Shown: one piece after another, positions 10,630 through 29,550 of the stretch
Layout of the letters: every line of letters begins with the position of its first letter
Numbering within the stretch: the first letter of the stretch is position 1
IMG/VR virus record: IMGVR_UViG_3300022220_000016
Location: 1-29,897 of that record
Source: a virus
DNA length: 29,897 nucleotides
Reading direction: 5' to 3' (one strand)
Notes under the pieces: generated by a model
The model's input: the letters and a program-made list of their open reading frames with translations, nothing else
The model's database searches: none
Told to the model about the DNA's origin: nothing
Made by a program: the position numbers and the translations under genes

Positions 10630-10686
10630 GGGTGGCGCCGACCTCACACCGGGCCGGGAGGCCGGCACCTATTCGGCGGTACCACA

Positions 10687-11039: not shown

Positions 11040-11059
11040 ACACAAGGGCACTCATAGCG

Positions 11060-11818: not shown

Positions 11819-11820
11819 CC

Positions 11821-14255: not shown

Positions 14256-14256
14256 C

Positions 14257-14661: not shown

Positions 14662-14664
14662 GTT

Positions 14665-16119
14665 GTGTCGAGCGTACTCAAGCAAACCCGAGCCATTCTT
14701 GAGAAGCGCCGCCTAAAGCTGAGCGGGGCCAACGACAACAAGCCGACCGACTTACCCGAGAACGTTTTGGAGTTCGTCGGCGCGGGGATGCGCCAAGACC
14801 AGCTCGACATCCTCGACACGTTCAAGCGCTTCAACTTCGTTTGTATCCACCGGCGCATGGGTAAGAGCTACATGCTCGCCGGCTACATGCTCGACCGCGC
14901 CGTCGAGTGTACGCATCTTCGCGGCAATTATGGCTATTTCGCGGCCACTAGGGGTCAAACATTCCAAGCCGTGTGGCGCGACCTGTTGGCGTGGGCGCAG
15001 CGCTTGCCGGGGACCACCTACCGCGAGAAGACTCACGAGATCTTCGTGCGCAACCGGGGTGGCGGCATCTCCCGGATCGTGGTCGAGGGGCTCAACCACA
15101 CCCGCCAACGCTCGGCGGGATGGAACGGGGTGGTCGTCGACGAGGCGGCCGAGGTCATCGAGGCGAAGTGGAAGTCGGAGCTCTACCCGGCGCTATGGGA
15201 CAACTCGCGCAAGGGCTACGACCGCAAGGGGCGCGAAGATCGGTGGGCGGTCATCTGCGGCACGCCCCTCGGGCGCAATTGGTTCTATCGCCTATATCTG
15301 CGGGCGAAGATGTGGGCGATCGGAAAAGCGTTCAAGTCGATCGACCAGGTCACCGGCGAGGAGACGTTCGAGGAGCATGAGGGCTGGTCATGCACCTATC
15401 TGCCGGTCAACAAGACCAAGCTGCTCACGAAGAAAGAGCAGAAGATCATCGAGACGGACATTGGCCGCGAAGACTTCCTTCGCGAGTTCATGCTCGATTG
15501 GACCGCCTCGACCTCGGGCTCGCTGTTGGGTGACGAGCTGCGCGCCATGCGCGACGGTGGACAGGTCGGCGACTTCGAGTTCGTCCCCGGCTACCCGGTG
15601 CATACGACGTGGGACCTCGGGCTATCGCAGACGGTCATCTGGTTTTTCCAGATCATCGCCGACGAGGTCCGGTTCATCGACGCCTTCACCCACAGTCGAG
15701 AGGGTATCGAGTGGTATTTCGAGACCGTCCTACCGGCCAGAAAGGAGCGCTACGGCTACGAGTATGGGACGCACTACCTACCGCATGACGCGGTCCACTC
15801 GGAGCTTCTCACCGGCAACATACGCCTGATGTACATCCTTGGTGTCTTGGCGTCGGAGGATGGCCCCGGCGGGATTGCCAAGGTGGTCGAGCGCCACGAC
15901 CCGAGGGCCGAGGGCATGGACAGCGTTCGTTGGATGTTTCAGCGCTGCGTGATCAACGAAGCTCGGTGTGAGGAACAGCTCGACAACCTCGCCATGGTCC
16001 GCCGGCGCTACGACCCCAAGACCGAGACCCTGAACGACCTGGTCGGCGACAACAACGTTCATTCCCTCGACGCCTTCCGGCAAGCGTCCTACCAGATCAG
16101 ACTGGACCTAGCGGCATGA
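14665..16119 (+). CDS. Terminase large subunit (first copy)
   Basis: 484 residues, GTG start. ATPase half: RQDQLDILDTFKRFNFVCIH, Walker A RRMGKS (K67), the GNYGYFAATRGQT motif, Walker B VVVDE (156-160) and the coupling motif CGTPLGRN. Nuclease half (RNase H fold): TTWDLGLSQTVIWFFQ with D317, YLPHDAV with D375, and HSLDAF with D469, giving three acidic residues. It would pump DNA into proheads and cut it. It belongs to the broad RRxGKS/T terminase group, unlike the second copy at 22313. It is followed by a small membrane-helix protein rather than by a portal, so it lacks head genes next to it. The assignment is firm; which terminase packages this phage is open. Confidence 0.86.
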   Translation: MSSVLKQTRAILEKRRLKLSGANDNKPTDLPENVLEFVGAGMRQDQLDILDTFKRFNFVCIHRRMGKSYMLAGYMLDRAVECTHLRGNYGYFAATRGQTFQAVWRDLLAWAQRLPGTTYREKTHEIFVRNRGGGISRIVVEGLNHTRQRSAGWNGVVVDEAAEVIEAKWKSELYPALWDNSRKGYDRKGREDRWAVICGTPLGRNWFYRLYLRAKMWAIGKAFKSIDQVTGEETFEEHEGWSCTYLPVNKTKLLTKKEQKIIETDIGREDFLREFMLDWTASTSGSLLGDELRAMRDGGQVGDFEFVPGYPVHTTWDLGLSQTVIWFFQIIADEVRFIDAFTHSREGIEWYFETVLPARKERYGYEYGTHYLPHDAVHSELLTGNIRLMYILGVLASEDGPGGIAKVVERHDPRAEGMDSVRWMFQRCVINEARCEEQLDNLAMVRRRYDPKTETLNDLVGDNNVHSLDAFRQASYQIRLDLAA

Positions 16120-16562: not shown

Positions 16563-16580
16563 AATTAGGTGACACGATTA

Positions 16581-16601
16581 AATCGGTGATTCGAATCGGT
16601 G
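16581..16601 (+). promoter_or_regulatory. Direct repeats with central palindrome upstream of promoter
   Basis: AATCGGTG occurs at 16581-16588 and 16594-16601, 13 bp apart, around the perfect palindrome GATTCGAATC (16588-16597). It lies about 30 bp upstream of the -35 box at 16632, the place of an activator or repressor site. Confidence 0.4.
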
Positions 16602-16631
16602 CGACGAATGCACTGTGGATGAAACAAAGGG

Positions 16632-16660
16632 TTGACGGGCGGAAGTGACCACCGTAAACT
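16632..16660 (+). promoter_or_regulatory. Sigma70-like promoter for the small-gene operon
   Basis: TTGACG (16632-16637), 17-base spacer, TAAACT (16655-16660). Transcription would start near 16667, just before the GGGAG ribosome site (16673-16677) of the gene at 16687. It is the best rightward promoter seen in the window. Confidence 0.6.
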
Positions 16661-16686
16661 CGAGGACGCATCGGGAGCCACACCAC

Positions 16687-16884
16687 ATGCTCGTTTCACC
16701 CCTCGACCTCACCACACCCAAACGCCGCCGTCGAGCCGTCCGCCGTGTCGGACGAAAGGCTTGGCGCGTGCTCCCGTGGCCGGCAAAGGTTGTGGCCTAT
16801 CTCGGAGGTCTCGTCGTCGGTCTGCTCGTCATCATCGGGCAGATCGGCGCCTTCATTTTCCGCAAGGGAGCAAGCAAGAAATGA
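16687..16884 (+). CDS. Small membrane protein, 65 residues
   Basis: ATG 16687 is preferred over an in-frame GTG at 16645, which would lie upstream of the predicted transcription start. Basic N-terminus (TPKRRRRAVRRVGRKAWRV), then a membrane helix (VVAYLGGLVVGLLVIIGQIG) with an inside N-terminus, ending in a basic tail. First gene of the operon; the stop overlaps the next ATG. No family recognised. Confidence 0.68.
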   Translation: MLVSPLDLTTPKRRRRAVRRVGRKAWRVLPWPAKVVAYLGGLVVGLLVIIGQIGAFIFRKGASKK

Positions 16885-17207
16885 CCAGCGCATTGGGTTG
16901 CCTGCACAGGGCGCGCAACTGGCTCAAAGATCCTGCCCATTGGTGCATAGGCGCCTTGGCTAGATCGGCCGCGGGCTACACCGTCGCGCCGGGCGACGAG
17001 AGATGTGTCGAAACCGACGCCGAGGGCGCGGTGATCAGGGCGGCCAAGGGCGCCGAGGAACTCGGGCTATGCCTCGACCTGATCAGACGGGCCGCCGCCG
17101 ACATGGGCTTCGATAGCGTCGGTCTCCTAAACGACGAGGGTGATCACGCCACCGTTCTTCGGCTGCTCGACAGGTCGATCGAGATGGCTCGCAAGGTGGC
17201 GGCATGA
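16881..17207 (+). CDS. DUF6197-type protein (first copy)
   Basis: 108 residues. The layout L..AR.WLKDPAHWCIGALAR, then a central helix, and LLNDEGDHATVLRLLDRSIE matches the DUF6197 family of phage and actinobacterial proteins, whose conserved end is WND....T...V...LDRAI..A; here the tryptophan of WND is replaced by leucine. A second member lies at 18032. Function of the family is unknown to me. Overlaps both neighbours by four bases. Confidence 0.7.
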   Translation: MTSALGCLHRARNWLKDPAHWCIGALARSAAGYTVAPGDERCVETDAEGAVIRAAKGAEELGLCLDLIRRAAADMGFDSVGLLNDEGDHATVLRLLDRSIEMARKVAA

Positions 17208-17644
17208 CCACGAAGCACAGCTTGAGCGAGCGCATAAGGCGCGATCACATAGCGATTCAATCGGCCGTCGAAGATGCGAGGGAGAGGGGTGACACCCGCT
17301 TCCTCAAACTTACCGGGGCCAGCGGCCGGCACCTCGCCATCACCCTCTTGATGGCCGACGCCGCGCTCGGGTTCGCGGTCGATGTGAAGCGGGCGAACAC
17401 GCCTAGGCTCGGCCCGGAGGTGTTCAAGCAACGCGGCATTGTCACGCCTCGCCCCATGGCCAACCCTGGAAATCCGCCGCGTGGCGGTTCGGGTGTGCCG
17501 AGGGGGCCGCTTGTCATGTTCCGGTGTGGCAACTGCTTTCATGAGATGGAACGTCCAGAGGGCGAGGTCTTCATTTGCCCGGAGTGCAAGAAGCGCGGCC
17601 CCTCGATCATGATGGGTCGAAAGACGACAAGAGAGGGCCTGTGA
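17204..17644 (+). CDS. Protein with C-terminal zinc ribbon (first of a pair)
   Basis: 146 residues. Helical N-terminal half (SERIRRDHIAIQSAVEDARE, LAITLLMADAALGFAVDVKR), a proline/glycine-rich linker, and a zinc ribbon FRCGNCFHEME ... FICPECKKRG with two C-x2-C pairs. This is a classic ribbon, distinct from the C-x2-C...H-x2-C module elsewhere. The neighbour at 17646 has the same layout, suggesting a duplication. Coupled to the DUF6197 gene before it by ATGA. Confidence 0.7.
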   Translation: MTTKHSLSERIRRDHIAIQSAVEDARERGDTRFLKLTGASGRHLAITLLMADAALGFAVDVKRANTPRLGPEVFKQRGIVTPRPMANPGNPPRGGSGVPRGPLVMFRCGNCFHEMERPEGEVFICPECKKRGPSIMMGRKTTREGL

Positions 17645-17645
17645 C

Positions 17646-18035
17646 GTGGGGACATTCACAACAGACGCCGACCCGACGCCGAGGGCTTTTGCGGCCAGGG
17701 CCAGCGCGGCGCTCGATGCTGCCGTCACCGGCTTGCTGGTCGCCGACAAATGGAACCCCAAAGACGAGAGCATGAAGGCCGCCGTGGTTGCCGAGCTGCG
17801 CGAGATCAGAAGCGCTGCGCTTCGCCTCGAAAGGGCGCTTCAGCGTGTCGTTCAGGTCGAGCCAGTGACAGGGCCACCAAAGAACGGCGAGCCGCCGAAC
17901 CAGGGGACGGCCGCCTACAACCCCATGCACGTCACCTACCAATGCCTCGGGTGCCGCCATCAGATCAGGCGCCCCGAGAGCTTCGCGATTGTTCGCTGCA
18001 AGGTGTGCAAGAACGAGATGGGTTTGATCCTATGA
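17646..18035 (+). CDS. Protein with C-terminal zinc ribbon (second of a pair)
   Basis: 129 residues from GTG 17646. The helical N-terminal half (FAARASAALDAAVTGLLVAD, AVVAELREIRSAALRLERAL) is followed by a short linker and a ribbon YQCLGCRHQIRRPESF, then VRCKVCKNEMG. Same architecture as the preceding gene but without close identity. The stop overlaps the ATG of the second DUF6197 gene. No family recognised. Confidence 0.68.
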   Translation: MGTFTTDADPTPRAFAARASAALDAAVTGLLVADKWNPKDESMKAAVVAELREIRSAALRLERALQRVVQVEPVTGPPKNGEPPNQGTAAYNPMHVTYQCLGCRHQIRRPESFAIVRCKVCKNEMGLIL

Positions 18036-18373
18036 AAGCTTCCGAACGTCTCGTCGCGGCGCGCAAGTTCCTCGACGATCCGCAGAGATGGACCACGGGG
18101 GTCTTCTGCCGCGATGCCTCGGGCGATCCTGTCCATTGGCACGAAGCCGATAGGGTGGCTTCGTGCTGCGTTTACGGCGCCCTTCTCGTCCAGCTCAACC
18201 AACTCGAAGAGGGCGTCGGGACGCCGGGCGATCACATCGAGGCATGCATGCTGATTTGTGATGCCATCCCCTGCGAAAGGGGTGAGGTGTTTAAGTGGAA
18301 CGACACCCACACCCACACCGAGGTACTCGCCATCATCGACAGGGCGATCGAGCTAGCAAGGAGTCGTGAGTGA
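18032..18373 (+). CDS. DUF6197-type protein (second copy)
   Basis: 113 residues. LVAARKFLDDPQRWTTGVFC opens as the family does, followed by a cysteine-containing middle helix (ASCCVYGALLVQLNQ) and the hallmark WNDTHTHTEVLAIIDRAIEL. This copy keeps the full WND motif that the first copy has changed. The paired order DUF6197, ribbon, ribbon, DUF6197 over 16881-18373 looks like duplication of a two-gene unit with inversion of order. Function unknown. Confidence 0.76.
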   Translation: MKASERLVAARKFLDDPQRWTTGVFCRDASGDPVHWHEADRVASCCVYGALLVQLNQLEEGVGTPGDHIEACMLICDAIPCERGEVFKWNDTHTHTEVLAIIDRAIELARSRE

Positions 18374-18801
18374 TGCCGCTACATCCCGACGTCATCAAAG
18401 ACGCTCTCAACTCGAAGGACCGCGTTCAACTCACCCAAGGCGCCGACGGCTACTGCCTCGCCGTCCCCGAGCTGGCGGCCGCTTGGTACTTCGACCGGCC
18501 ATGGCTGGCGATGCAGGCCTATGCCGCCATGAACAAGCTTCTCGTGTGGCGTGACACCGCGGGCGCCACCGTGGGGCCGGGCGAGTTCGAGATGCTCACT
18601 CGCTTCGTTATCGACGCCATGAAGACGCCGCTCACGGCCGGGTCACTTACCAAGATACTCGGCGGTCGAGGGGTCGAGGGGCACAGGCCGTTGTTCGTCG
18701 TCGAAGATCCACACAAACCCTTTGGCGTGCCGGCTAGGCCGGACATCTTCGGACCCGTCACCATTGATGAATGGGCCGATAAAGAGGAGAGCTCCAAGTG
18801 A
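18373..18801 (+). CDS. Hypothetical 142-residue protein
   Basis: ATG 18373 shares a base with the preceding stop (TGATG). Helix-rich N-terminal half (PELAAAWYFDRPWLAMQAYA), then FEMLTRFVIDAMKTPLTAGS and a C-terminal proline-rich part (VEDPHKPFGVPARPDIFGPV) ending acidic. No motif recognised. The stop overlaps the next GTG. Confidence 0.66.
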   Translation: MPLHPDVIKDALNSKDRVQLTQGADGYCLAVPELAAAWYFDRPWLAMQAYAAMNKLLVWRDTAGATVGPGEFEMLTRFVIDAMKTPLTAGSLTKILGGRGVEGHRPLFVVEDPHKPFGVPARPDIFGPVTIDEWADKEESSK

Positions 18802-19211
18802 GTACCGAGGTCAAAGAGCCCGAGGTCGCGGCGTGGGAGCGCCAGATCGACGACAACATCGCCCGCCGGTACCGAAGCTATCGGACATTCCACCCCGACC
18901 GGGTCAGGGGCTTCGGTTTCGAAGAGTGGTACCAGTCTATGGGCTATCGCGAAGACGAGGCGTCGATATGCGCCAGCCTGCTAGGCGTTACCCCGCGCTA
19001 TGTCCGAGATCTTCGCAAGGGCAGGTACACGCCGAGTGAGGCGTTGATCCATCAATGCCTGTCACATTCCCGAATGGTTCGGGCCTGTGGTCTGGCCGAG
19101 CTGGCACTTCGCAAGGTCGAGGGTCTCGGCGGTGACGTCGAGGCGGTGGTTGGAGCGCTCAACGAGGAGATTGGCATAAGGTCAACTTACGGCTGGATGG
19201 GGTCTTGGTAA
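18798..19211 (+). CDS. HTH-like protein, 137 residues
   Basis: GTG 18798. N-terminal part rich in charged and aromatic residues (RYRSYRTFHPDRVRGFGFEE), then a likely helix-turn-helix: EASICASLLGVTPRYVRDLR with KGRYTPSEALI after it, where LLGVTPRYVRDL fits the turn and recognition helix. The remaining half is helical. It could regulate the operon in which it sits. The HTH call is moderate; no named family recognised. Confidence 0.62.
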   Translation: MSTEVKEPEVAAWERQIDDNIARRYRSYRTFHPDRVRGFGFEEWYQSMGYREDEASICASLLGVTPRYVRDLRKGRYTPSEALIHQCLSHSRMVRACGLAELALRKVEGLGGDVEAVVGALNEEIGIRSTYGWMGSW

Positions 19212-19390
19212 TGGGCAAGAAGCGCAGGCGCGAGAAGCTCAAGACCTATTATTCACCGTCGTGGGTCGACCCCATGGGGAACAGGTTCATAGTCCTTGAC
19301 GCTTGGAATGCTTGCGAGAGCATGAAGGAGCGCCACCGTGCGGCCTTGCTGGCATTGGGCGCCAAGCCTGAACGCGAGCAGATGAATTGA
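19211..19390 (+). CDS. Basic 59-residue protein
   Basis: ATG 19211 overlaps the previous TAA (TAATG). MGKKRRREKLKTYYSPSWVD, then GNRFIVLDAWNACESMKERH and a polar end. The strongly basic start suggests nucleic-acid contact. No family recognised. Confidence 0.58.
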   Translation: MGKKRRREKLKTYYSPSWVDPMGNRFIVLDAWNACESMKERHRAALLALGAKPEREQMN

Positions 19391-19396
19391 TCGGGC

Positions 19397-19864
19397 ATGT
19401 TGAGCAGGGCCATAAGCGGCGCCCCATGGCCGGTCCTGCTCGTTCTGTGGGCGTTGGCGCTCGTCTGGCTGATCGTCTCGACCGCTTGGCGTCTCGGCGC
19501 TTGGATCGGCGGGAACTTCGTCGAGCATCCCGTCGATCTGGAGTTAGCGCAGGACTCCGACGCTTTCTACAGATCGCCATCTTGGAGGTCGATTGCCTGG
19601 TCGAGGCGCCTGATCAATCGGTTCCAGAATTGGGGTCGGCTCAAGTGCGAGTGCTGTGGGTGCCGGGGCGCCGACGAGTGGCACGTCGACCACGTCTACC
19701 CGAGATCGACGCACCCCGAGAAGGCACTCTCGTTGCCAGATACGCAGCTCTATTGCGCGGGGTGCAACATCGAGAAGGGTAACCGTTTCGTCGGCCGTGG
19801 ACCGCGTGAGAATTGGAAACCAAACCCGCGCCTGAAACGGCGCAAGCCAAGGGTGAAGGCATGA
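19397..19864 (+). CDS. Membrane-anchored HNH endonuclease
   Basis: 155 residues. An N-terminal hydrophobic segment (11-35, WPVLLVLWALALVWLIVSTA) reads as a membrane anchor. After a linker comes an HNH nuclease: C84/C87 region (KCECCGC), WHVDHVYPRS with H96 and catalytic-type H99, then C120-x2-C123 (YCAGCN) with N124 and EKGNR. Zinc cysteines and the DH pair are intact, so nicking or cutting activity is likely. HNH proteins next to phage terminases often aid packaging, but those are normally soluble. Here the anchor suggests action at the membrane. It sits inside the small-gene operon; the stop overlaps the next ATG. The C-terminus is basic. Confidence 0.8.
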   Translation: MLSRAISGAPWPVLLVLWALALVWLIVSTAWRLGAWIGGNFVEHPVDLELAQDSDAFYRSPSWRSIAWSRRLINRFQNWGRLKCECCGCRGADEWHVDHVYPRSTHPEKALSLPDTQLYCAGCNIEKGNRFVGRGPRENWKPNPRLKRRKPRVKA

Positions 19865-20124
19865 GCAAGGATACAGTCAAGATTACTTTCGACTACGAGA
19901 TCAGCTCGTCGATGAAGACCGAGGAGATGGAACCCGGTGACTTCGCCTATTGCAGCTCGAAGGAACACTTGGAGCTAGCATTGATCGCCGAGGGCGACGA
20001 GATGGCCGAGTTTAGCTGCCATGTCGGCGCGGTCGGTCTCGACGAGCTTTGGCGTCGGGTCGAGGACATCAGAAGGGGCGAAGTCGGTGCCGCGTTGCAT
20101 CGCCAATCGAAGGCTTCGGACTGA
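19861..20124 (+). CDS. Hypothetical acidic 87-residue protein
   Basis: MSKDTVKITFDYEISSSMKT opens with a beta-strand pattern, followed by an acidic stretch (EGDEMAEFSCHVGAVGLDEL) and a helix. ATG overlaps the HNH stop; the TGA shares its A with the ATG of the next gene. No family recognised. Confidence 0.62.
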   Translation: MSKDTVKITFDYEISSSMKTEEMEPGDFAYCSSKEHLELALIAEGDEMAEFSCHVGAVGLDELWRRVEDIRRGEVGAALHRQSKASD

Positions 20125-20363
20125 TGGCGCTTCACCCCTGCGGAGTGTGCGGCCGTCCGGTCCACGTCCAGATCATTCGGTTTCGGTCGCCCATGATCAA
20201 GCTGGTCAGCATTTGGGTCATGCACAAAGAGAAGCTGCCCAAGTGTTACGGCGCCGACGCCTTCGCCGTGAACTACGGGGTCAAACGGGGCGACGAGGGG
20301 CCATGCCCAAAGGAGCGGGCGGAAGCACTGGTCGCGGAATGGAACGGGGAGAATCCAGCATGA
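20124..20363 (+). CDS. Small cysteine-motif protein, 79 residues
   Basis: ATG 20124 overlaps the previous stop (TGATG). Starts MALHPCGVCGRPVHVQIIRF with a C-x2-C pair, later LPKCYGADAF and GPCPKERAEA, so four cysteines in total could bind zinc. C-terminal helix (ERAEALVAEWNGENP) resembles the end of Lar-like restriction-alleviation proteins (NR..A...WN), which are small two-CxxC zinc proteins. The match is partial: spacing differs and the family call is tentative. Confidence 0.6.
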   Translation: MALHPCGVCGRPVHVQIIRFRSPMIKLVSIWVMHKEKLPKCYGADAFAVNYGVKRGDEGPCPKERAEALVAEWNGENPA

Positions 20364-20554
20364 AACGGGAAAGGCGAGACCAGGGCATCACGACGAGGAT
20401 TAAGAGCTTAGACGAGCGCTTCGCAAGGGACCTCGACCGGGTCTTCGGTGCTGGGCCGACCCCAAAGCTCGGCCTCAAGACCCCGGACGGTGAGGCGCTC
20501 AAGATCGACGAGGAAAGCCTCACTGCTTTGCTCAAGCGCACAGGGGGCGAGTGA
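20360..20554 (+). CDS. Hypothetical 64-residue protein
   Basis: MKRERRDQGITTRIKSLDER, then FARDLDRVFGAGPTPKLGLK and an acidic helix ending LLKRTGGE. Basic first third, mixed charge after. Overlaps both neighbours (ATGA, TGATG). No family recognised. Confidence 0.58.
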   Translation: MKRERRDQGITTRIKSLDERFARDLDRVFGAGPTPKLGLKTPDGEALKIDEESLTALLKRTGGE

Positions 20555-20955
20555 TGATCGACCCTGTGAGATGGGGCAGGAAAGGGGGTGTCTTCAATTG
20601 GTGGGATGGCCGCGGAGCGCTCGACCATGAGAAGCCGTCCCCCAAGCTTGTCACGTTCGACGCTCGCGAGCTGGCGCTGGTTTACACGGGCCTTGCAAAC
20701 CTTGGGTTCACCGATGACGAGATCTCAATCCTGTTCGAGATCACGGCCTATGAGGAGCTCTCCAACAACAAAACCTTAGCTCTGGCGAAGGTCGCCGCGC
20801 TCCAAGTGGTCACCAAGAAGGTCGTGACCAAAGAGGACGCTCACCAGCTTATCGAGGCCTTGGACTGGATGCGCCAGCCATCGTTCGAGACGAACCTTGC
20901 CTATTGGCGCTTCATCAGCAAGATCCGCCTGTGGTGGCGGGAGCTGTGGTCGTGA
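20554..20955 (+). CDS. Hypothetical 133-residue protein
   Basis: ATG 20554. MIDPVRWGRKGGVFNWWDGR, then FDARELALVYTGLANLGFTD, helical centre (EELSNNKTLALAKVAALQVV) and a tryptophan-rich end (YWRFISKIRLWWRELWS). All-helical in appearance, soluble, no cysteine. No family recognised. The stop overlaps the next GTG. Confidence 0.64.
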   Translation: MIDPVRWGRKGGVFNWWDGRGALDHEKPSPKLVTFDARELALVYTGLANLGFTDDEISILFEITAYEELSNNKTLALAKVAALQVVTKKVVTKEDAHQLIEALDWMRQPSFETNLAYWRFISKIRLWWRELWS

Positions 20956-21203
20956 CACCGTGTTCGTGGTGCGGTGAGGATGTCAGGATTCACCGATGGC
21001 TCGAAACATGGCCAGGCAACACGACGGTTCGGGTCGGCGCGATCAGGCACGTCAGACAGCCAAACCCATGTCGGTCAACCATTGGCTTGGTCGTCTCTCA
21101 TATCGAGCCAGACATGTTTTTCTTTTCTGCCAAGGTCGCCGCGATGGTCATGGTTTGGCGTGTCCGCCATCGCCGCAAGTGGCTGCCGGAGGTTGTATCA
21201 TGA
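20952..21203 (+). CDS. Cysteine-motif protein with hydrophobic C-terminal segment, 83 residues
   Basis: GTG 20952 overlaps the previous stop. VTPCSWCGEDVRIHRW has a C-x2-C pair near the start, and RHVRQPNPC gives a further H and C, so a small zinc site is possible. A later stretch (MFFFSAKVAAMVMVWRV) is hydrophobic and may be a buried or membrane helix. The end is basic. No family recognised. Confidence 0.55.
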   Translation: MTPCSWCGEDVRIHRWLETWPGNTTVRVGAIRHVRQPNPCRSTIGLVVSHIEPDMFFFSAKVAAMVMVWRVRHRRKWLPEVVS

Positions 21204-21412
21204 GACTATGTCGAACCTGTTCTCGGGGTGTGACATTGAGGTCGACCAAGGCCGGTCACACCGTAAGGGTTGCCGTCAAGCACCGGACGACGAGCTATTG
21301 CAGCGGCACGATAGGCTTCGAGACGAACGTCGTGCTCGACGGTCGCAACGACGAGGCCGCGGTCAAGGATGCCGAGGCAAGCTTGATCCGCGAGTGGGAT
21401 ACTTGCCAATGA
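21200..21412 (+). CDS. Hypothetical 70-residue protein
   Basis: ATG 21200 overlaps the previous TGA. MRLCRTCSRGVTLRSTKAGH begins with a C-x2-C pair; TTSYCSGTIGFETNV and EWDTCQ add two more cysteines, so a zinc site is possible. Strand-rich. The stop overlaps the next ATG. No family recognised. Confidence 0.55.
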   Translation: MRLCRTCSRGVTLRSTKAGHTVRVAVKHRTTSYCSGTIGFETNVVLDGRNDEAAVKDAEASLIREWDTCQ

Positions 21413-21717
21413 AAGATGCTTATCAAAGTTGCTGTCTTTGCGGCCGTGACATCGAATGGCTCGAAGAAACCATCGGCGACAACATCCTCGCAGGCATTCC
21501 GATAAGGCACCGAGCTTGTGCCGAGCGCAACGCCTACCTCTTGAGCCCGCCCGACACTCACGGGACCCAAACCTTTCAATTCGAGCCGGGCCACGCGATC
21601 CCTTGCTTGGGCTGCTCCAAGAACATGACGACGGGGCAGAAGCTGTTGTGGCGGCACGGCAAGGGTCAGGGGATGCCCTACGCACACCATGGGTGCATTC
21701 GTGAGGATTGCCAATGA
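21409..21717 (+). CDS. Tandem zinc-module protein
   Basis: 102 residues carrying two copies of the window's recurring module: C8-x2-C11-x22-H34-x2-C37 (CCLCGRDI ... IPIRHRAC) and C66-x2-C69-x23-H93-x2-C96 (CLGCSKNM ... YAHHGC), with little else. It is thus the purest form of the module. It is coupled to both neighbours by ATGA overlaps. A compact double zinc-binding adaptor is the likely structure; partner unknown. Confidence 0.74.
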   Translation: MKDAYQSCCLCGRDIEWLEETIGDNILAGIPIRHRACAERNAYLLSPPDTHGTQTFQFEPGHAIPCLGCSKNMTTGQKLLWRHGKGQGMPYAHHGCIREDCQ

Positions 21718-22019
21718 ACGCCGTCTTCGGTTGCACGTTGGCTTGCGTCGTCGGGAGCTTCGGCGACAGGTGGTCGACGATCTCGATCAAGCCGACTGGC
21801 GGTCGCTTGGGCGGCGAGCTGTATGCCGAGAAGGGCGCGAGCGTCGAGGAGATAGCGCTCAAGGTCCTCGAACTCGTCGACGACAAGGGGGCCGGCGCAG
21901 TCGAGGTCAGCGGCGGCGGCCTGCGCTGGGGCGTCATCGACTTCATCAAAGAAATGATCAGGGAAGAAACGATCTACGCCGACGACGTCGAGATAATCGA
22001 CGCGGGTCACGCTGAGTAG
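21714..22019 (+). CDS. Hypothetical 101-residue protein
   Basis: MNAVFGCTLACVVGSFGDRW opens hydrophobic but is too short for a confident signal; then STISIKPTGGRLGGELYAEK, a helix (SVEEIALKVLELVDDKGAGA) and an alpha/beta end (GVIDFIKEMIREETIYADDV). Likely a small alpha/beta globular protein. Last gene of the coupled series. No family recognised. Confidence 0.62.
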   Translation: MNAVFGCTLACVVGSFGDRWSTISIKPTGGRLGGELYAEKGASVEEIALKVLELVDDKGAGAVEVSGGGLRWGVIDFIKEMIREETIYADDVEIIDAGHAE

Positions 22020-22047
22020 AGCGCATCAATCAGAGGGGTTTGGTTCA

Positions 22048-22254
22048 ATGGCAAATCTACACCTACCGGTCGACGAGACTACGATCCGCCGCCTCGACAG
22101 GGTTCGGGAGCGGCGGGGCTTCGAGACGATCACCGAAGCTGCGCTCGAACTCATGGCCACGGGGTTGGAATCCCATGAGCAGGCATATGGTTCGACCAAA
22201 CCTGTCCACGTCGGACAGGTCGGACGACAGAAGCCCGACCGACGCTCGGCTTGA
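22048..22254 (+). CDS. Ribbon-helix-helix-like protein
   Basis: 68 residues. ANLHLPVDETTIRRLDRVRE looks like the N-terminal strand (LHLPVDE) and first helix of a ribbon-helix-helix (Arc/CopG-like) DNA-binding fold, and FETITEAALELMATGLES fits its second helix. The tail is basic and polar. A 28-base gap separates it from the previous gene, and it precedes the second large terminase, so it might regulate late genes or serve as a packaging-linked DNA binder. The fold call is moderate. Confidence 0.6.
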   Translation: MANLHLPVDETTIRRLDRVRERRGFETITEAALELMATGLESHEQAYGSTKPVHVGQVGRQKPDRRSA

Positions 22255-22269
22255 CGGCCACTACAAGGG

Positions 22270-22309
22270 GGCGCTCTCATGCGGCAACGACACGCTAGCA
22301 TGAGGCGCC
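22270..22309 (+). promoter_or_regulatory. Hairpin covering the ribosome site of the second terminase
   Basis: GGCGCTCTCATG (22270-22281) pairs with CATGAGGCGCC (22299-22309) with a one-base bulge and a 17-base loop. The 3' arm contains the GAGG ribosome site for the TTG start at 22313, so folding would hide it. It may regulate expression of the terminase and head genes. Confidence 0.5.
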
Positions 22310-22312
22310 TCT

Positions 22313-23752
22313 TTGGATTCTCGGGAGCTGCGCGAGCAGTTTCGCACAAGGCCGCTCTGGTTCGTCGACGATATCCTCGGCTGCAACCTCTGGCCCGTGC
22401 AACAGAAGATCGTGACCAAGGTCGCGAAGTTCGACCATGTTTGCGTGCCGAGCTGCCATGCCTCGGGTAAGGACTACACCAGCGCTCGGGTGGTCCTCTG
22501 GTTCCTTCTCTCCCATCGCCCCTCGATCGTCATCACGACGGGACCGACCGACCGACAGGTTCGTGAAATCCTCTGGCGTGAGATCGCGGTCGCCCATAGG
22601 AGCTCGCGCTACAACCTCGGGGGCCGGCTACTCAAACAGAAGCTCGAACTCGGGGCCGACTGGTTCGCGCTCGGATTCACGTCGGCCGACACCGACGCCA
22701 CCGCCGGCCAGGGATTCCACTCGCACCACATCCTAACCATCATCGACGAGAGCGCCGGCGTGACCCGAGATACCCGGGACGCCATTCAAGGCAACCTCTC
22801 GGGCGGCTACACCACGAAGTTGTTGGAGATAGGCAACCCGACCGACCCGACCAGCCCCTTCGCCTCGGAGTGCGCCCGCTCGGGGACTCACACCTACGGC
22901 ATCGACGCCTTCAACACGCCAAACTTCATCGAGTTCGGCATCAAGCCAAAGGACATCGACAGCGGCGATTGGATCAAGAAGGTCGACGGGCGGCCTCTCC
23001 CGGCGCCCTATCTGATTTCGCCGGCCTGGGTTCATACGCAGGTTGACCGGCTCGGATGGGACGACCCTTTTGTCGTCGCTCGTGTCCGCGGTCGGTTCCC
23101 CGGCGCCGGTCCTGATAGCATCCTTACGCAGCAATGGATCGACGACGCGGCCGAGGCGACTTACCGGCCGCACAAGAACGACCCGATCGTTCTGGTGTGC
23201 GACGTCGCGCGCTTCGGCGATGACGAGACTGTCATCGGGTACCGCAAGGGCTACCGCTACCGCACGCTAGAGCGGGGCCGCGGCAACGACACCATGGACA
23301 CCGCCGGGCGTATCTTGAACTACCATCGGAAGATGAAGGCGGCGCAGATCAGGGTTGACGACGACGGCGTTGGTGGTGGTGTCACCGATCGCTTGCGCGA
23401 AGAGTTGGAGAAGACCGGCGAGGCCGACATCGTCTACCCGATGCGAGGCGGCGCCGCTCCGATGGACGAGAACCCGATCGACGGGCCGCGCTTTCTGAAC
23501 GCCCGCGCCGAATGGCACTGGCATATGAAGATGGAGTTCAAAGGTGGGCGGGTCGACATCGACGACAACGACCACGAGCTCAAAGCGCAGCTCGCACAGC
23601 TCAAGATCAAGCGGTGGGATGGTAGCGGTCGCATCGTCATCGAGGCGAAGGAGGACTTCAAGAAACGGGTAGGTCGATCGCCCGACGATAGCGACACGCT
23701 TCTGTACGCACTTGCGCCAGTTGACCTATATCCTGCTATACAGGTGTTCTAA
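22313..23752 (+). CDS. Terminase large subunit (second copy)
   Basis: 479 residues; TTG 22313 is the only well-placed start (GAGG seven bases upstream). ATPase half: WPVQQKIVTKVAKFDHVCVP, a P-loop SCHASGKD (47-54, K53), ITTGPTDRQVREILWREI, Walker B TIIDES (142-147), and GNPTDPTSPF as coupling motif. Nuclease half: VCDVARFGDDETVIGYRKG with D297, RVDDDGVGGGVTDRLREEL with D349, and SPDDSDTLLYAL with D461. This is the DVARFGDD class of large terminase, distinct from the first copy. It leads directly to the head genes, so it is the more likely packaging motor here. Aspartate replaces the usual S/T after the P-loop lysine, which is unexpected. Confidence 0.87.
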   Translation: MDSRELREQFRTRPLWFVDDILGCNLWPVQQKIVTKVAKFDHVCVPSCHASGKDYTSARVVLWFLLSHRPSIVITTGPTDRQVREILWREIAVAHRSSRYNLGGRLLKQKLELGADWFALGFTSADTDATAGQGFHSHHILTIIDESAGVTRDTRDAIQGNLSGGYTTKLLEIGNPTDPTSPFASECARSGTHTYGIDAFNTPNFIEFGIKPKDIDSGDWIKKVDGRPLPAPYLISPAWVHTQVDRLGWDDPFVVARVRGRFPGAGPDSILTQQWIDDAAEATYRPHKNDPIVLVCDVARFGDDETVIGYRKGYRYRTLERGRGNDTMDTAGRILNYHRKMKAAQIRVDDDGVGGGVTDRLREELEKTGEADIVYPMRGGAAPMDENPIDGPRFLNARAEWHWHMKMEFKGGRVDIDDNDHELKAQLAQLKIKRWDGSGRIVIEAKEDFKKRVGRSPDDSDTLLYALAPVDLYPAIQVF

Positions 23753-23800
23753 GCAATCCCGGGCAGCTACAACGGCCACCGTTCTAAGGGGCGCTGCCAC

Positions 23801-24904
23801 ATGGGCGAGATCGTCGCGAAGCTACCGGACCACCTCGGCGAGCTTCACCAACTTCGCAGTTGGACACCAAGCTTTCTAACCGCCGGACTGGCCAGCAAGA
23901 TCGGCGAAGTCGGCCAGCTCCCGAACCTCGATCGAGCGCTTCACGAGATCACGACCAGGGCGGTCGACACCACCGCCATTGCGACCTCGGGCAAGACGCC
24001 GGCGACGGTCTTCGGTGAGTTCATCAACACCGCGCAAGTGGGCTCGAACCACCTAGCCCTTGCGCAGAACGTTACCGCCGAGGCCGAGTCGGTCCAGCTC
24101 TCCCGGTTGATCCCCGACCAGGACCAGCTTCAAACCGGGGCCGACACCACGACCAATCTCACCGACACCGACGGCATCACTTTCGGCGGGACCACCGTCG
24201 CCCTGACAGAGTTGTATTGGTACGAGCGGGTGACGCTGAACTACCTCGAAGACAACATCGCCGGCGGTGACATCGAGGCCTCTGTCGGTCGAGCGGTTCT
24301 CGCTGGTTTTGCCGAGCAGCTCTCGAAGCTCGCGCTTGAGGGCGATAACTCGTTATCCGGCTTTATCAGTCGCATCGACGGATGGGTTCAGCACGCGACC
24401 GACGGAGGCTCGACCAGCTTCGCGGCCGCTGCGGCAGAGTTCGCCAACGCCACCTCGATCGGGCTGTTCCTCGACAAGCTGTGGGACAACATGGGCGCTC
24501 GGTACCGCAACCGAGGCGACATCGTCCACCTCGTCAACGCCGACGCCTTGAAGCGCTTCGAGATCGAGACCAGGGCCGCCGGCGGTGACAAGGTCGTGAC
24601 GACCAGGTCGGTCGGCCCCAACATCGTCGAGCGAGGGTTTCAGGGCGAGCGCATCGTCGGCGAGGAACGGCGCCACAGTGACGCCGACCAGAAGAACCGG
24701 GTGATGTGTACGCCGGCGGCCAACCTGGTCGTGGCCACGGGTCGAGACATGCGGGTCGATGCCAAGTTTCTGCCGAGGCTGCGCGCCATCGACTACGTCG
24801 TCACCACCCGTATCGGCTTTGGCGTGCGGGACTTCGCAGCGGTCAAGATGGGGATTCCGCCGGCGGCTATCTACGGTACCGGCGTCGTTGCGGACGGCCC
24901 CTAG
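23801..24904 (+). CDS. HK97-fold major capsid-like protein without scaffold domain (copy 1)
   Basis: 367 residues, ATG 23801 with AAGGGG upstream. It aligns by eye with the major capsid protein at 28123: DTTAIATSGKTP (56-67) with DTTAIASSGKLP; ELYWYERVTLNYLEDNIAGG with EVIWAEDITLSFLEDNIERA; and RDMRVDAKFLPRLRAIDYVV with RNMRVDSEFQPRKRAVEYTI. The N-terminus before DTTAIA is only 55 residues, against 160 in the other copy, so it lacks the coiled-coil scaffold (delta) region. It sits between the terminase and the portal, an uncommon place for a capsid gene. It may form part of the shell, for example as a minor or alternative subunit. Family firm through the paralogue; role open. Confidence 0.75.
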   Translation: MGEIVAKLPDHLGELHQLRSWTPSFLTAGLASKIGEVGQLPNLDRALHEITTRAVDTTAIATSGKTPATVFGEFINTAQVGSNHLALAQNVTAEAESVQLSRLIPDQDQLQTGADTTTNLTDTDGITFGGTTVALTELYWYERVTLNYLEDNIAGGDIEASVGRAVLAGFAEQLSKLALEGDNSLSGFISRIDGWVQHATDGGSTSFAAAAAEFANATSIGLFLDKLWDNMGARYRNRGDIVHLVNADALKRFEIETRAAGGDKVVTTRSVGPNIVERGFQGERIVGEERRHSDADQKNRVMCTPAANLVVATGRDMRVDAKFLPRLRAIDYVVTTRIGFGVRDFAAVKMGIPPAAIYGTGVVADGP

Positions 24905-24915
24905 GGGGCTCGCCA

Positions 24916-27354
24916 ATGTTTGGCCGCTTGCCGCAAGCTTGGGCGGTCCTGCGAGGTCAGAAGCTACCCGACCAGCGACCGACCTCGCACGGCATCATCC
25001 CTATGCAGCTCGGCGCCTATCAGATCGACAGGCGCCAGACAGCCGACGACCAGCTAAACGCCTATCGGGGGTGGGTGGCCGCGTGCGTCAACGTGCTCTC
25101 CTCGGGGGTCAGGCAACAGCCCTGGTTCCTGTGCAGGGACACCGGACCCGACCCCGAGGACATCGAGAAGCTCGAACTCGACCAGGTCCCCGAGGTCCTC
25201 AAGATGCCATCCCTGTTGATGGATCTTGGAACGCTGCTCGAACTCTCGGTCAAGCACCTCGACACGACTGGCTCGATGTTTTGGTACCTCGTGACCAGGA
25301 CCGAGGGCGACCCGACCAGTGAGGTCCTCGGTATTCAGCCGCTTTACCCTCAACAGGTCTTGCCGCACTACAACGACCGCCTACAGGTCTTCGACGCTTG
25401 GGAAGTGCGGATAGCGGGCCAGCCGCAAATGACGATCCCACACCAGGACGTCGTCTGGACCTATCGGCCTCACCCCTCGATCCCGTGGCTTGGCGCCTCG
25501 CCGATCGAGCAGGTCGCGTTGACGGTCGACCTCGACCTGTACGCCAAGGCCTACGGCGTCGCCATGATCGAGGGCGGCGGGATGCCTCCGGGCATCCTCT
25601 CGATGGAACAAAAGGTCACGCCAGAGCAGGCCGAGGCGGTCAAGGCTAGGTGGAAGAACCAGCGGGCCGACCCCGACGACATCGCGGTCATCGGCAACGG
25701 CGCCAGCTTCGAGCAGGTCGGCACGAGCCTAAAGGATCTTGCTTGGCTCGACCTTGCCCGCATGAACCGCGACGAGGTCCTCGCTATCTATCAGGTCCCC
25801 TCGGCCAAGCTCGGACTGATCGAGGACGTCAACCGAGCCAATGCCGTCGACGTGAACCGCGCCTTTGCTGCCGACGCCCTGCGCCCGCGCTTGCGCATGA
25901 TCGAAGACAGCATGAACCGCTACGTCTTGCCGCGCCTCGGCGTGGGTCCTGATGTCTTCTTTCGGTTCGAGAACCCGGTCGACCAGGACATGGCGCTTGC
26001 CGTGTCACGGGCCAACGCCGCCTATGATCGGGGCGCGATCACCGTCAACGAATACCGGAAGGAAACCAACCGCGACGAGATCGAAGGTGGTGACGTCTAC
26101 TCACCGAGCCGTGATCGGCCTATTCGTGCCGACCTTGCGCCGCGCGAGCCGGCGGCCGCGAGTGGTGGTTTCGGTGGCGGCGGTGGCGAGGACGCGAAGG
26201 GCGACGGCCAGATCCCCGAGGTCGAGAAGGACGATAGTGCCGAGGCTCGCGCACTGCCGGCGCCTGGTGAGCAAGAGATAATCGGTATCGACCTTGCCCG
26301 CGAAGGTAGCGACGTAACAGTCTATCACACGGAGCCGGTCGAGCTCGGGCTCGAAGGTCTCACCGGCGACGAGGTCATCTCGACACTGCAAGCCCGCTCC
26401 CTTCTCCCTGAGATCCTACCCCTATCAGATCGAGAAATGCGGGCCGTCGCCTCGACCTTCGAGAACATCCAGGATCGGATGGAACGGGATTGCTTGCGCA
26501 GGTTCCGCGCGCTGTTGGGCGCCGAACAGTCTCGGGTCGTCAAAGAGATCAGGTCCAGAAAGCGGGTGCCGAAGATCAGTTCGCGCGGCGTCTTTCACGC
26601 CGACTTCGAGGCCGATTGCTGGGAGTTCGCCGAGCTGGGGCTCGATGGTACCGAGCGGCTGATCTACGAGGACGTCATCGAGTTCGAGCAGACGGCGGCC
26701 GAGGTCGATCTACAGCGTGACTTGCTTTCGACGATCCACGCCGGCCAGACAAAGAGCTGGTCGAACGCTTGGAACAAGATGCTGCGCGACGGCTTCGTCA
26801 ACGGGTGGAACATCCTACGAGAGGAAGCCGGGCGCGACCTGGTCGACGTCGGCCCGGTCCTGGAGAAGCGACGCGCCTCGATCCTGCGCCAAGCCGAAAT
26901 CAGAGTCCGCCGTTTTCGCAAGACCACCCGGCGCCAGATTGCCAGGGGTATTCGGAACCTGATCAGGGCACGGAAGAAGGAAGGGCTCGACACCACGCCG
27001 GACGACGTCGCCGAGGAAGTCTCGCGCATCTATGACCAGGCCAAGTCAGGTAGAGCTCAAACCGTGTGCAGGACCGAGACGAGCTTCGCCCTGAACGATG
27101 GCAAGAACCGTCATATGAAGATGGCCGAGCGGCGCCTCGACGTGACGTTCATCAAGACGTGGAACGCCATCCTCGACGAGCACACCAGGCCGGGCCACAC
27201 CAGCGCGCATGGCCAGGAACGAGAGGTCAACGACGAGTTCGTCGTTTCGGGCGAGGCCTTGCGGCACCCGCTCGACCCGCGCGGGTCCGCGGGCAACATC
27301 ATCAATTGCCGCTGCACGATGAACGTCCAAATGAAGCAAAGGCGGAAGTCATGA
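24916..27354 (+). CDS. Portal protein fused to MuF-like minor head protein
   Basis: 812 residues from ATG 24916, just after the capsid-like gene. Residues 1-390 are an HK97-type portal: GAYQIDRRQTADDQLNAYRG, VAACVNVLSSGVRQQPW, VVWTYRPHPSIPWLGASPIE, PPGILSMEQKVTPEQ, LDLARMNRDEVLAIYQVPSA and the NEYRKE end at 378-383. A glycine-rich linker (about 408-425) follows, then IIGIDLAREGSDVTVYH from 455, and a long helical region. Residues from C718 (CRTETSFALNDGKNRHMKMA) to NIINCRCTM (C798, C800) are the Mu gpF-like minor head domain. The portal would form the dodecamer at the vertex; the fused part would enter the capsid or connect to it. Portal-MuF fusions are known but uncommon. The stop overlaps the protease start. 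Confidence 0.86.
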   Translation: MFGRLPQAWAVLRGQKLPDQRPTSHGIIPMQLGAYQIDRRQTADDQLNAYRGWVAACVNVLSSGVRQQPWFLCRDTGPDPEDIEKLELDQVPEVLKMPSLLMDLGTLLELSVKHLDTTGSMFWYLVTRTEGDPTSEVLGIQPLYPQQVLPHYNDRLQVFDAWEVRIAGQPQMTIPHQDVVWTYRPHPSIPWLGASPIEQVALTVDLDLYAKAYGVAMIEGGGMPPGILSMEQKVTPEQAEAVKARWKNQRADPDDIAVIGNGASFEQVGTSLKDLAWLDLARMNRDEVLAIYQVPSAKLGLIEDVNRANAVDVNRAFAADALRPRLRMIEDSMNRYVLPRLGVGPDVFFRFENPVDQDMALAVSRANAAYDRGAITVNEYRKETNRDEIEGGDVYSPSRDRPIRADLAPREPAAASGGFGGGGGEDAKGDGQIPEVEKDDSAEARALPAPGEQEIIGIDLAREGSDVTVYHTEPVELGLEGLTGDEVISTLQARSLLPEILPLSDREMRAVASTFENIQDRMERDCLRRFRALLGAEQSRVVKEIRSRKRVPKISSRGVFHADFEADCWEFAELGLDGTERLIYEDVIEFEQTAAEVDLQRDLLSTIHAGQTKSWSNAWNKMLRDGFVNGWNILREEAGRDLVDVGPVLEKRRASILRQAEIRVRRFRKTTRRQIARGIRNLIRARKKEGLDTTPDDVAEEVSRIYDQAKSGRAQTVCRTETSFALNDGKNRHMKMAERRLDVTFIKTWNAILDEHTRPGHTSAHGQEREVNDEFVVSGEALRHPLDPRGSAGNIINCRCTMNVQMKQRRKS

Positions 27355-28145
27355 CAGAAGCTCACAGCACCATCGTTAGAGCCGCCGGATGCGAGCTACT
27401 CCGAGCGGGTGGCAAGGGCGATTTGAAGCGGCGGGCGAAGTTCCGCCTCTCCGACGACAGCCTCGATCGGATGAACACCAGGATCGACCCGAGGGGTATC
27501 GACACGAAGGCGTTTGAATCAAACCCGGTCTTCCTGTGGGGTCACGGTGGCTATGGCAGCTTCACCGGCCCGCCGGACATCACCAACGTGATCGGCCGCG
27601 TACTCTCGACGCAAGTCACGAGCTTGACCCGAGACGCGAGCGACGCCTCGGCCTCTCTCGACATCGAGGTCGAGTTTGCACCTGGTTCAGTGAACGAGAA
27701 AGCCGAGCAGGCATTTCGGATGGTAAGCGAGGGGTTCCTTCGCGCCGTCTCGATCGGCCTATCGGTGCGCGACTTCCGCGTCGAGAAGGGCGAGGACGAC
27801 CGAAAGGGTAGCGTCGTCGTGTTCACCGAGACCGAGATGCTTGAGGCTTCGTTGGTTCCGATCCCGGCGAACCGAAACGCAACGGTTTTGACGAATGCCT
27901 TTCCCTCGATGTATGACTTAGGGCATGAGCCGTCGGACGTGGAACAGCGCGTTATTCGGTGGCTTGAGGTTTCCCGCTCGAACGGGTCTCCGCGGCAGCG
28001 CGTAGATATCGACCCCAAGGCGGTTGTTAAGACGGCCGTCGGCATGAGCCGACGACGCCGGGCAATGGCAACCACCGGCCAGCTCTTAAGAACGGAGCTG
28101 CGCGACTTATGGGGTCAAACAGATGCCGACCAAGAGAATCCGTGA
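27351..28145 (+). CDS. Prohead protease (HK97 type, peptidase S78)
   Basis: 264 residues from ATG 27351 (ATGA overlap with the portal). FRLSDDSLDRMNTRIDPRGI, then FESNPVFLWGHGG with H65, VIGRVLSTQVT, a core ending LRAVSIGLSVRDF with S134, and TEMLEASLVPIPANRNA. This is the phage HK97 prohead maturation protease fold with its catalytic His and Ser; the third residue (acid or His) was not pinned down. It would cleave the scaffold region of the major capsid protein encoded next. The C-terminal 80 residues are basic and may be removed or bind scaffold. The end overlaps the next gene by 23 bases. Confidence 0.86.
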   Translation: MTEAHSTIVRAAGCELLRAGGKGDLKRRAKFRLSDDSLDRMNTRIDPRGIDTKAFESNPVFLWGHGGYGSFTGPPDITNVIGRVLSTQVTSLTRDASDASASLDIEVEFAPGSVNEKAEQAFRMVSEGFLRAVSIGLSVRDFRVEKGEDDRKGSVVVFTETEMLEASLVPIPANRNATVLTNAFPSMYDLGHEPSDVEQRVIRWLEVSRSNGSPRQRVDIDPKAVVKTAVGMSRRRRAMATTGQLLRTELRDLWGQTDADQENP

Positions 28146-29550
28146 CGACGACGACGGCGCGATCAAGCACGAAGCCGCAGCGGAAGAGACCGAGTTCGAG
28201 ACACTATCGACCGCCGAGCGCTCCGAGATCGCAAAGGACATCTTCAGCCTCGCCGAGGGCAGCATCAAGCGCGCCGTCGACGAGGTTCACCGCCAGCTCG
28301 ACGAGAAGCTCGACGAGGGCCTGAACCCGGGCAGCGAGAAGGTCCAAGCGCTCGAACGCGCGCTCGACGAGAAGCAGGCCGAGCTCGACGCCGCCCTTGG
28401 CAAGATCAGCGATCAAATGCGGCTGCTCGAAGCCCACATGCGCGGTATCGGCCGTGTCACTGGCTCGACCCGAGTTACCGACGCGCCTGACCACGCCGAC
28501 TACAAGGGCACGTTCATGACGCCCGAGCGGCACAAGGCGATTATCGCGGAGTACTCCCGCGGTGACCCTGATCGCATTCCGGGTTACCAGGCTCGCGCCG
28601 CCGACACCACGGCGATCGCTTCCTCGGGCAAGCTCCCGATCGATGTGGCCGACGCCTTCATCGACCTGATCATTCAAGAGCAGGCGATGTTGTCCAAGGT
28701 GACGACCCGCCGGATGATCAGCCCCGAGGCTCGCCTCGACCAGTTGTTCGTCAACAAGCGCCAGATCGTCGCCGCGACCGAGAACACGGCGCCGACAGTA
28801 GCCAACGCCATCGGTTTCCGGGGGAGCACGCTTTCGACCAAGGAGGTCATTTGGGCCGAAGACATCACTCTCTCGTTCTTGGAAGACAACATCGAGAGAG
28901 CGAATGCCGAAAATCACATCGCCGGCGTCTTGGCGCGGCAGTTCGGAACCGACCTCAATGACCTCGGCTGGAATGGCGACACCGGCGGCGCCGGGAACTT
29001 CATTCCGATCGTCGATGGCTTTGCAAAGCTGATCAACACCGACCCGAGCGCTCCGACCCAGTCGGGCGCAGGATCGGCCGACACCGGCGACGGCGTCGAT
29101 CAGCCGACCGTGGTGACCACGCCGGGCGCACCGGCCGGGACCACCCCGGTCGCGGCGTTGTTCCGGTTGATCCACAAGGCCTTGCCCGAGCGGCACAAGG
29201 CGCGCAGCGACTACGGTTTCTTCGTGCCGACCGGTACCGCCGAGCTGTATGCCGACGAGGTCCAACAGCGTGAGACGGCGCTCGGCGACAATGTCCTGAT
29301 CAACGGGCTACCGTCGCTTCGCTACTTCGGCCGCTCGGTGTGGCCCGAGCCCCATCTTCCGCCTCGGGTCTTCTTGACGCCGGTCCAGCTCATGTTCTTC
29401 GGCATCCTTCGCAACATGCGGGTCGACAGTGAGTTCCAGCCCCGCAAGCGTGCCGTCGAGTACACCATCACCGCCCGGATCGGTTACCAGATTACCGGCT
29501 ACGAGACCTTCGTTCGGTTGTCTGCCGATCTGCCGGCCGGTTTCCTCTAG
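28123..29550 (+). CDS. HK97-fold major capsid protein with N-terminal scaffold domain (copy 2)
   Basis: 475 residues from ATG 28123. Residues about 26-110 form a charged coiled coil (TLSTAERSEIAKDIFSLAEG, EKVQALERALDEKQAELDAA) as in the HK97 delta domain that acts as built-in scaffold and is cut off by the protease encoded just upstream. A linker (111-160) probably holds the cleavage site. The mature part from about D161 (DTTAIASSGKLPIDVADAFI) has the capsid fold: an extended-loop-like part, the LEDNI helix, a Gly/Ala/Thr-rich insertion (SGAGSADTGDGVDQPTVVTT), and C-terminal strands (FFGILRNMRVDSEFQPRKRA). It follows the standard portal-protease-capsid order and is the main shell subunit. Strongly supported. 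Confidence 0.85.
   Translation: MPTKRIRDDDDGAIKHEAAAEETEFETLSTAERSEIAKDIFSLAEGSIKRAVDEVHRQLDEKLDEGLNPGSEKVQALERALDEKQAELDAALGKISDQMRLLEAHMRGIGRVTGSTRVTDAPDHADYKGTFMTPERHKAIIAEYSRGDPDRIPGYQARAADTTAIASSGKLPIDVADAFIDLIIQEQAMLSKVTTRRMISPEARLDQLFVNKRQIVAATENTAPTVANAIGFRGSTLSTKEVIWAEDITLSFLEDNIERANAENHIAGVLARQFGTDLNDLGWNGDTGGAGNFIPIVDGFAKLINTDPSAPTQSGAGSADTGDGVDQPTVVTTPGAPAGTTPVAALFRLIHKALPERHKARSDYGFFVPTGTAELYADEVQQRETALGDNVLINGLPSLRYFGRSVWPEPHLPPRVFLTPVQLMFFGILRNMRVDSEFQPRKRAVEYTITARIGYQITGYETFVRLSADLPAGFL

Follow-up and report, generated by a model that had tools for sequence, protein, structure and literature searches.

A second, scaffold-free capsid protein of predicted HK97 fold encoded at the terminase–portal junction of a viral genome fragment

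The window considered here is the whole of the virus record IMGVR_UViG_3300022220_000016 of IMG/VR (positions 1 to 29,897; 29,897 bases), which is probably part of a larger genome. Its right end is occupied by a run of head genes on the + strand, encoding in order a large terminase (TerL2), a capsid protein (MCP1), a portal protein fused to a Mu-F domain, an S78-type protease and a further major capsid protein (MCP2). MCP2 (28123..29550, + strand; 475 amino acids (aa)) is the ordinary major capsid protein (MCP), with a fused N-terminal helical scaffold at residues 1 to about 110, whereas MCP1 (23801..24904, + strand; 367 aa) is an extra protein of predicted HK97 fold without a scaffold domain. 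Such an additional HK97-fold capsid gene, intact and scaffold-free and placed between terL and portal, is real and rare. The reading that we favour, although its chance is put a little short of even, is that MCP1 is a duplicated MCP which has lost its scaffold and may have become specialised as a minor shell subunit co-assembling with MCP2, most likely at the vertices.

Homology, predicted fold and scaffold

An earlier note on this DNA had described two paralogous HK97-fold capsid proteins, and both open reading frames (ORFs) were found where it had placed them, at 23801-24904 and 28123-29550. MCP1 and MCP2 are 27 % identical over 328 aa (BLASTP, E 1e-23), an alignment that includes the colinear blocks listed in the note, and phrog_1623 ('virion structural protein, head and packaging') is the sole PHROG family matched by either. 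Most of the profile length is covered in both cases (14-297 of 305, E 1.2e-26, for MCP1; 13-298 of 305, E 1.1e-58, for MCP2). Judged by this homology, the two proteins are paralogues, as the note had proposed. AlphaFold2 models built from an alignment of 31 family members had a predicted local distance difference test score (pLDDT) of 73.6 and a predicted template modelling score (pTM) of 0.68 for MCP1, and of 78.2 and 0.60 for MCP2. Foldseek comparison with the PDB gave more than 300 matches at E<=1e-3 for each model, led by HK97-fold capsids (7jw1, 7oz4, the gene transfer agent (GTA) and HK97); the MCP1 model matched the P2/P4 capsid 7jw1 with E 2e-12 and the MCP2 model phiRSA1 7oz4 with E 3e-12. 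Both proteins are thus predicted to have the HK97 fold, and a first copy without it, which the note had named as a ground for abandoning its view, is rejected, since HK97-fold capsids are what Foldseek returns for the MCP1 model.

The common core starts at residue 53 of MCP1 and at residue 158 of MCP2, a difference of 105 residues that bears out the earlier claim of a roughly 105-residue N-terminal scaffold on the second copy only (52 and 157 residues, respectively, stand ahead of the core). Long, confidently predicted N-terminal helices (residues 10-27, 30-64 and 72-109) are present in MCP2 and missing from MCP1, the first 52 residues of which are predicted by AlphaFold2 with low confidence. 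The candidate explanation that these 52 residues are the leftover of the MCP2 arm was rejected, as 1116 of 2000 shuffles scored as high. MCP2 therefore combines a built-in N-terminal helical, delta-like scaffold with an upstream S78 protease, which is expected to remove it, and MCP1 has no such scaffold. MCP2 also contains, at residues about 309-341 (29047-29145), a low-confidence insertion rich in Gly, Ala and Thr that is absent or much shorter in its closest relatives.

The ordinary and the extra capsid gene

Because its relatives retain the cassette of TerL, portal (with or without Mu-F), S78 protease and scaffold-bearing MCP, MCP2 is by comparison the ordinary capsid gene, and MCP1 is by the same comparison an additional gene at the TerL/portal junction. 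An MCP2 query matched 226 phage records, at one place in each and mostly in proteins labelled major capsid protein or virion structural protein; the MCP gene was located after the portal and protease genes in all eight of the matching records that were inspected. The phrog_1623 MCPs of the phage records start without a helical extension. Closer relatives, namely the loci L014-L020, L104-L116 and L123, which comprise viral contigs and a Thermaceae metagenome-assembled genome, resemble MCP2 in having the helical extension as part of the MCP.

The relative most informative for gene order is L115 (IMGVR_UViG_3300005095_000130), the one member of the set that also bears a TerL2-family terminase (29 % identical). 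Its terminase, portal-Mu-F, protease and scaffold-MCP genes are consecutive, and terL ends at 6791 while the portal gene starts at 6788, an overlap of 4 bases with no MCP1 between. The terL gene likewise abuts the portal gene in L017 and L026, which carry another terminase family. Ahead of the portal gene, more than 1.1 kb of sequence is available in 11 fused-clade relatives (L017, L026, L107, L108, L110, L111, L113-L116 and L122), none of which showed a second capsid. The earlier note was thus right to call the extra copy abnormal.

Searches at a wider scale gave the same picture. A profile that included MCP1 detected two copies in 0 of 115 matching loci (198 loci searched), and two-copy records were absent from the 67 whole records searched, 62 of which contain the family; apparent double rows in these records came from a single ORF broken into two pieces and from a chance match of 34 columns. 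With MCP1 as the query, nothing was found in phage records at E 1e-5 (weak matches alone at E up to 10), plasmids gave no match, and the viral contigs yielded only the identical contig IMGVR_UViG_3300022201_000007. Profile searches extended to two bacterial classes, with about 750 genomes, returned single copies only. Published descriptions of phages, other than T4-like ones, with duplicated HK97-fold MCPs were sought and nothing relevant came to light, which does not imply that such cases are unpublished.

Two other explanations for the extra gene were considered. IMGVR_UViG_3300022201_000007 is 100 % identical to window positions 11877-28976 (17.1 kb), a segment spanning both terminases of the window, MCP1 and the portal; an assembly artefact or chimera is therefore unlikely, since this second contig crosses the MCP1 junctions, with the proviso that the two contigs are possibly of one sample. 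That the TerL2 lineage has MCP1 as its usual capsid was rejected, as MCP1 matches none of the 18 sampled TerL2 relatives in which the terminase shares its contig segment with a portal, protease or capsid match; five further TerL2 records contain no capsid of the MCP1/MCP2 family.

Origin and constraint

When the core (314 columns, without those of the scaffold) was used for a maximum-likelihood tree, MCP1 grouped with the eight fused-scaffold MCPs with support of 100/99 and was placed beside MCP2 with support of 89/89. Since MCP1 falls within the fused-scaffold clade, nearest to MCP2, it is most simply explained as a descendant of a scaffold-bearing capsid protein from which the scaffold has been lost. 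Duplication in place is, however, not the only route to such a protein. MCP1 may have been passed on horizontally by a different phage with a fused-scaffold MCP in the course of module shuffling, and such a xenologue could have any of the functions considered here. The sister support for MCP1 and MCP2 is just 89/89, on a long branch, and the approximately unbiased test does not reject a tree in which all eight fused MCPs form a group that excludes MCP1 (p-AU 0.21); the genome also shuffles head genes, as its two terminases come from different lineages. Nevertheless, a donor-like sequence is absent from the viral contig, phage and plasmid searches, the base composition of MCP1 is like that of its neighbours, and the shortest path distance from MCP1 is to MCP2, so that transfer is considered quite improbable.

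The terminal branch of MCP1 is 3.16 changes per column long, nine times the median of 0.35. The earlier note had offered four roles for the extra copy, namely a two-subunit shell, an alternative capsid size, a vertex-specific subunit and a duplication in progress; the evidence leans towards a specialised minor or vertex subunit, and a duplication in progress is disfavoured because the divergence is very long. The same branch would suit a relic, meaning a capsid gene, duplicated or displaced, that is under relaxed constraint and contributes nothing to the virion but has not yet been lost. Of 48 residues that never vary within the fused clade, MCP1 has moreover lost 21, including G312, which all 30 other family members share, and the gene is missing from all relatives. 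On the other side, its 367 codons remain free of stops after about 3 changes per site, its GC content by codon position (0.64/0.47/0.83) resembles that of functional neighbours (0.63/0.45/0.84 in MCP2), 27 of the 48 invariant positions are retained at an overall identity of 25-27 %, and both contigs retain the gene among closely packed head genes. The intact frame, the MCP2-like codon-position GC and the retained invariant residues argue for constraint on MCP1, and a relic is regarded as unlikely. The earlier note had reasoned that if no related phage kept an intact copy, the gene would be a decaying duplicate. It is correct that no other phage in the searches has the copy, but decay does not follow, because MCP1 is intact, in frame and in possession of most of the family-invariant residues.

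Possible role in the shell

Relative to other members of the fused clade, the loss of similarity in MCP1 peaks at residues 263-300 (2.35 BLOSUM units, versus 1.26 elsewhere), the putative tip of the A domain, which would lie at the capsomer centre; for a longer interval (241-300), a value as extreme arose in 9 of 287 circular shifts. The regions of MCP1 nearest to clade-level identity are the N-arm (raw identity 0.31, versus 0.42 within the clade), the first part of the A domain (0.21 versus 0.27) and the C-terminal strands of the P domain (0.33 versus 0.39). The proposal that MCP1 may be a minor shell subunit is made because it is a paralogue of the MCP, its scaffold is missing and most of the change is found at the putative capsomer centre, as in gp24 of T4. 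Its location within the head gene run, beside terL2 and the portal gene, also counts for a role in the shell.

In the proposed assembly pathway, scaffold-bearing MCP2 would drive prohead assembly on the portal, while MCP1, having no scaffold, would be unable to nucleate a shell and would be incorporated via conserved inter-capsomer contacts; the S78 protease would then cut off the MCP2 scaffold and the shell would mature. The sites taken by MCP1 would most likely be exceptional positions of the lattice, either the pentameric vertices or those around the portal. We infer the co-assembly with MCP2, the vertex position and the dependence on MCP2 from the features listed above, and several points weigh against them. 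In many HK97-fold phages the vertices are filled by the same MCP and a vertex protein is not required. As MCP1 is found in no other phage, there is neither cross-genome conservation nor a ratio of non-synonymous to synonymous substitution (dN/dS) to show selection. The A-tip signal is modest and its region was picked after the alignment had been seen, the A domain was assigned from the order of predicted strands and helices, and the confidence of the MCP1 model is moderate.

A capsid protein without a scaffold could also act in a different manner, as a mimic that poisons the assembly of a co-infecting phage or satellite or regulates the phage's own MCP, without being a stable component of the virion. 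A diverged, scaffold-free protein might be dominant negative, and MCP1 is confined to one lineage. Against this, MCP1 is encoded in the phage's own head gene run, and the family residues that it has kept are just as compatible with co-assembly; such a role is given only a slim chance.

Two large terminases

The window encodes two full-length large terminases, which is unusual in that both the motor and the shell would be redundant in one phage fragment. TerL2 (22313..23752, + strand; phrog_2, E 3.5e-27) opens the head cassette, and TerL1 (14665..16119, + strand; phrog_2, E 1.5e-26) stands alone among small genes about 8 kb ahead of MCP1, with no portal or capsid of its own among the tested ORFs. 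No direct similarity between TerL1 and TerL2 was detected, and by this comparison they are unrelated and of different lineages, TerL1 being nearest to a pelagiphage TerL (28 % identity, E 3e-34). The Walker A motif of TerL1 is ordinary-looking (RRMGKS), whereas that of TerL2 reads PSCHASGKD (residues 44-57; 22442-22483). The residue after GK is S or T in 83 of 86 aligned sequences and D in three; GKD is borne by the window's sister contig, L129 and L172, with a single terminase detected in each of the latter two. The Walker B motif and the nuclease aspartates of TerL2 are present. The suggestion that TerL2 is a plainly dead ATPase is weakened by the occurrence of GKD in two relatives with one detected terminase.

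The scaffold governs head size in many phages, and a scaffold-free subunit could alter that size. MCP1 may accordingly make or modify an alternative capsid, in the form of mixed hexamers or a second head size, with the ratio of scaffold-free to scaffolded subunits switching the geometry; the two large terminases would be compatible with two packaging modes. On the other hand, just one portal and one protease gene were found in the window, a second cargo genome or satellite is not known, and TerL1, about 8 kb away, lacks head genes of its own. An alternative capsid is considered unlikely, although sequence does not distinguish either it or a two-subunit shell from a vertex role. More speculative still, and very improbable, is a single-portal phage that combines scaffolded and scaffold-free shell proteins with two terminases to build or fill two kinds of head, MCP1 setting the geometry and the motors, one of them with the unusual GKD Walker A, dividing the ATPase and nuclease work, or the DNA, between them.

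Organization of the window

Gaps of 48 and 11 bases separate MCP1 from terL2 and from the portal gene, respectively. As the earlier note had indicated, the portal and protease genes lie between the two capsid genes. The portal gene (24916..27354, + strand; PF04860, E 4.5e-47; phrog_2662, E 5e-79) includes a C-terminal Mu-F/head morphogenesis domain (PF04233, E 6.3e-13) and encodes a single protein of about 812 residues, a fusion also found in L017, L026, L115 and others. It overlaps the gene for the S78-type prohead protease (27351..28145, + strand; PF04586, E 3.1e-6), which in turn overlaps that for MCP2; relatives of the protease are 34-49 % identical and encoded between portal and MCP. The ORF after MCP2 begins at 29575. 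No promoters or terminators above chance were detected around the head cassette.

Upstream of the cassette, an HNH endonuclease (19397-19864; PF01844, E 1.2e-6) is encoded between the two terminases. Several small ORFs within 4805-22019 (e.g. 4805-5884, 5990-6484, 11927-12556 and 13043-13606) have common zinc-ribbon-like CxxC...H/C motifs, and such small proteins flank TerL1 on both sides, as if one small family had multiplied. A Staphylococcal-nuclease-like protein with a hydrophobic N-terminal segment (6509-7153; PF00565, E 1.4e-14) and a right-handed beta-helix protein (8716-10062; PF13229 at E 2e-5, which does not reach the curated cut-off) that may be a tailspike or depolymerase are also encoded.

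Comparison with known systems

Whether one protein serves both hexamers and pentamers, or two as in T4, is a classic question that is usually argued from T4 alone. A paralogous pair of shell proteins is as a concept already known from that phage. Duplication of the MCP, loss of the N-terminal scaffold and divergence appear to have occurred independently here, in a cassette in which the scaffold is inside the MCP, and L115 provides the corresponding cassette without the extra gene: it has a TerL2-family terminase, portal-Mu-F, S78 protease and scaffold-MCP in the same order, and differs in the terL/portal overlap that stands in place of MCP1. If MCP1 is present in virions, the pair would offer a second, small system in which to study how a minor or vertex-specific shell subunit evolves and whether its evolution hinges on losing the scaffold.

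As an ordinary phrog_1623 member encoded after portal and protease, MCP2 resembles the MCPs of Stanwilliamsviridae StarPlatinum/Gilson, Vibrio vB_ValS_PJ32, Stenotrophomonas DLP5 and Rhodobacter RcZahn. Those phages, in contrast, have a single MCP without the helical extension, whereas the window has the extension on MCP2 and an extra copy without it. MCP2 is also like gp5 of HK97 in that the scaffold is built into the MCP (the N-terminal delta-domain in gp5) and is expected to be removed by a protease; HK97, however, has one MCP and belongs to a different sequence family, with no match here to the HK97-type capsid family in Pfam. In a capsid-forming satellite (cf-PICI), a second complete head set of portal, protease, MCP and TerL would be expected, and it is absent among the tested window ORFs, the sole portal and protease of which both belong to the MCP2 cassette.

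The closest parallel is the gp23/gp24 pair of T4, where one phage likewise has two paralogous HK97-fold shell proteins; in T4 the second lacks most of the N-terminal propeptide. The T4 vertex protein gp24 probably arose through duplication of gp23, and the T4 protease removes 65 N-terminal residues from gp23 and 10 from gp24 (PMC9958956). Some T4 bypass mutations map to the A domain of gp23, at within-capsomer interfaces (PMC9958956), and the A domain is the site where the choice between hexamer and pentamer is tuned (PMC9958956, PMC3012670). Unlike in T4, the scaffold is here fused to the MCP, the protease is of the S78 type and the additional gene has terL and portal as its neighbours; neither MCP1 nor MCP2 matches the gp23/gp24 family in Pfam or PHROGs. 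The T4 protein gp24 is a pentameric vertex protein; for MCP1, the hint of a vertex position comes from the divergence of its A-domain tip. We infer that MCP1, if it does occupy the vertices, would work like gp24 by convergence.

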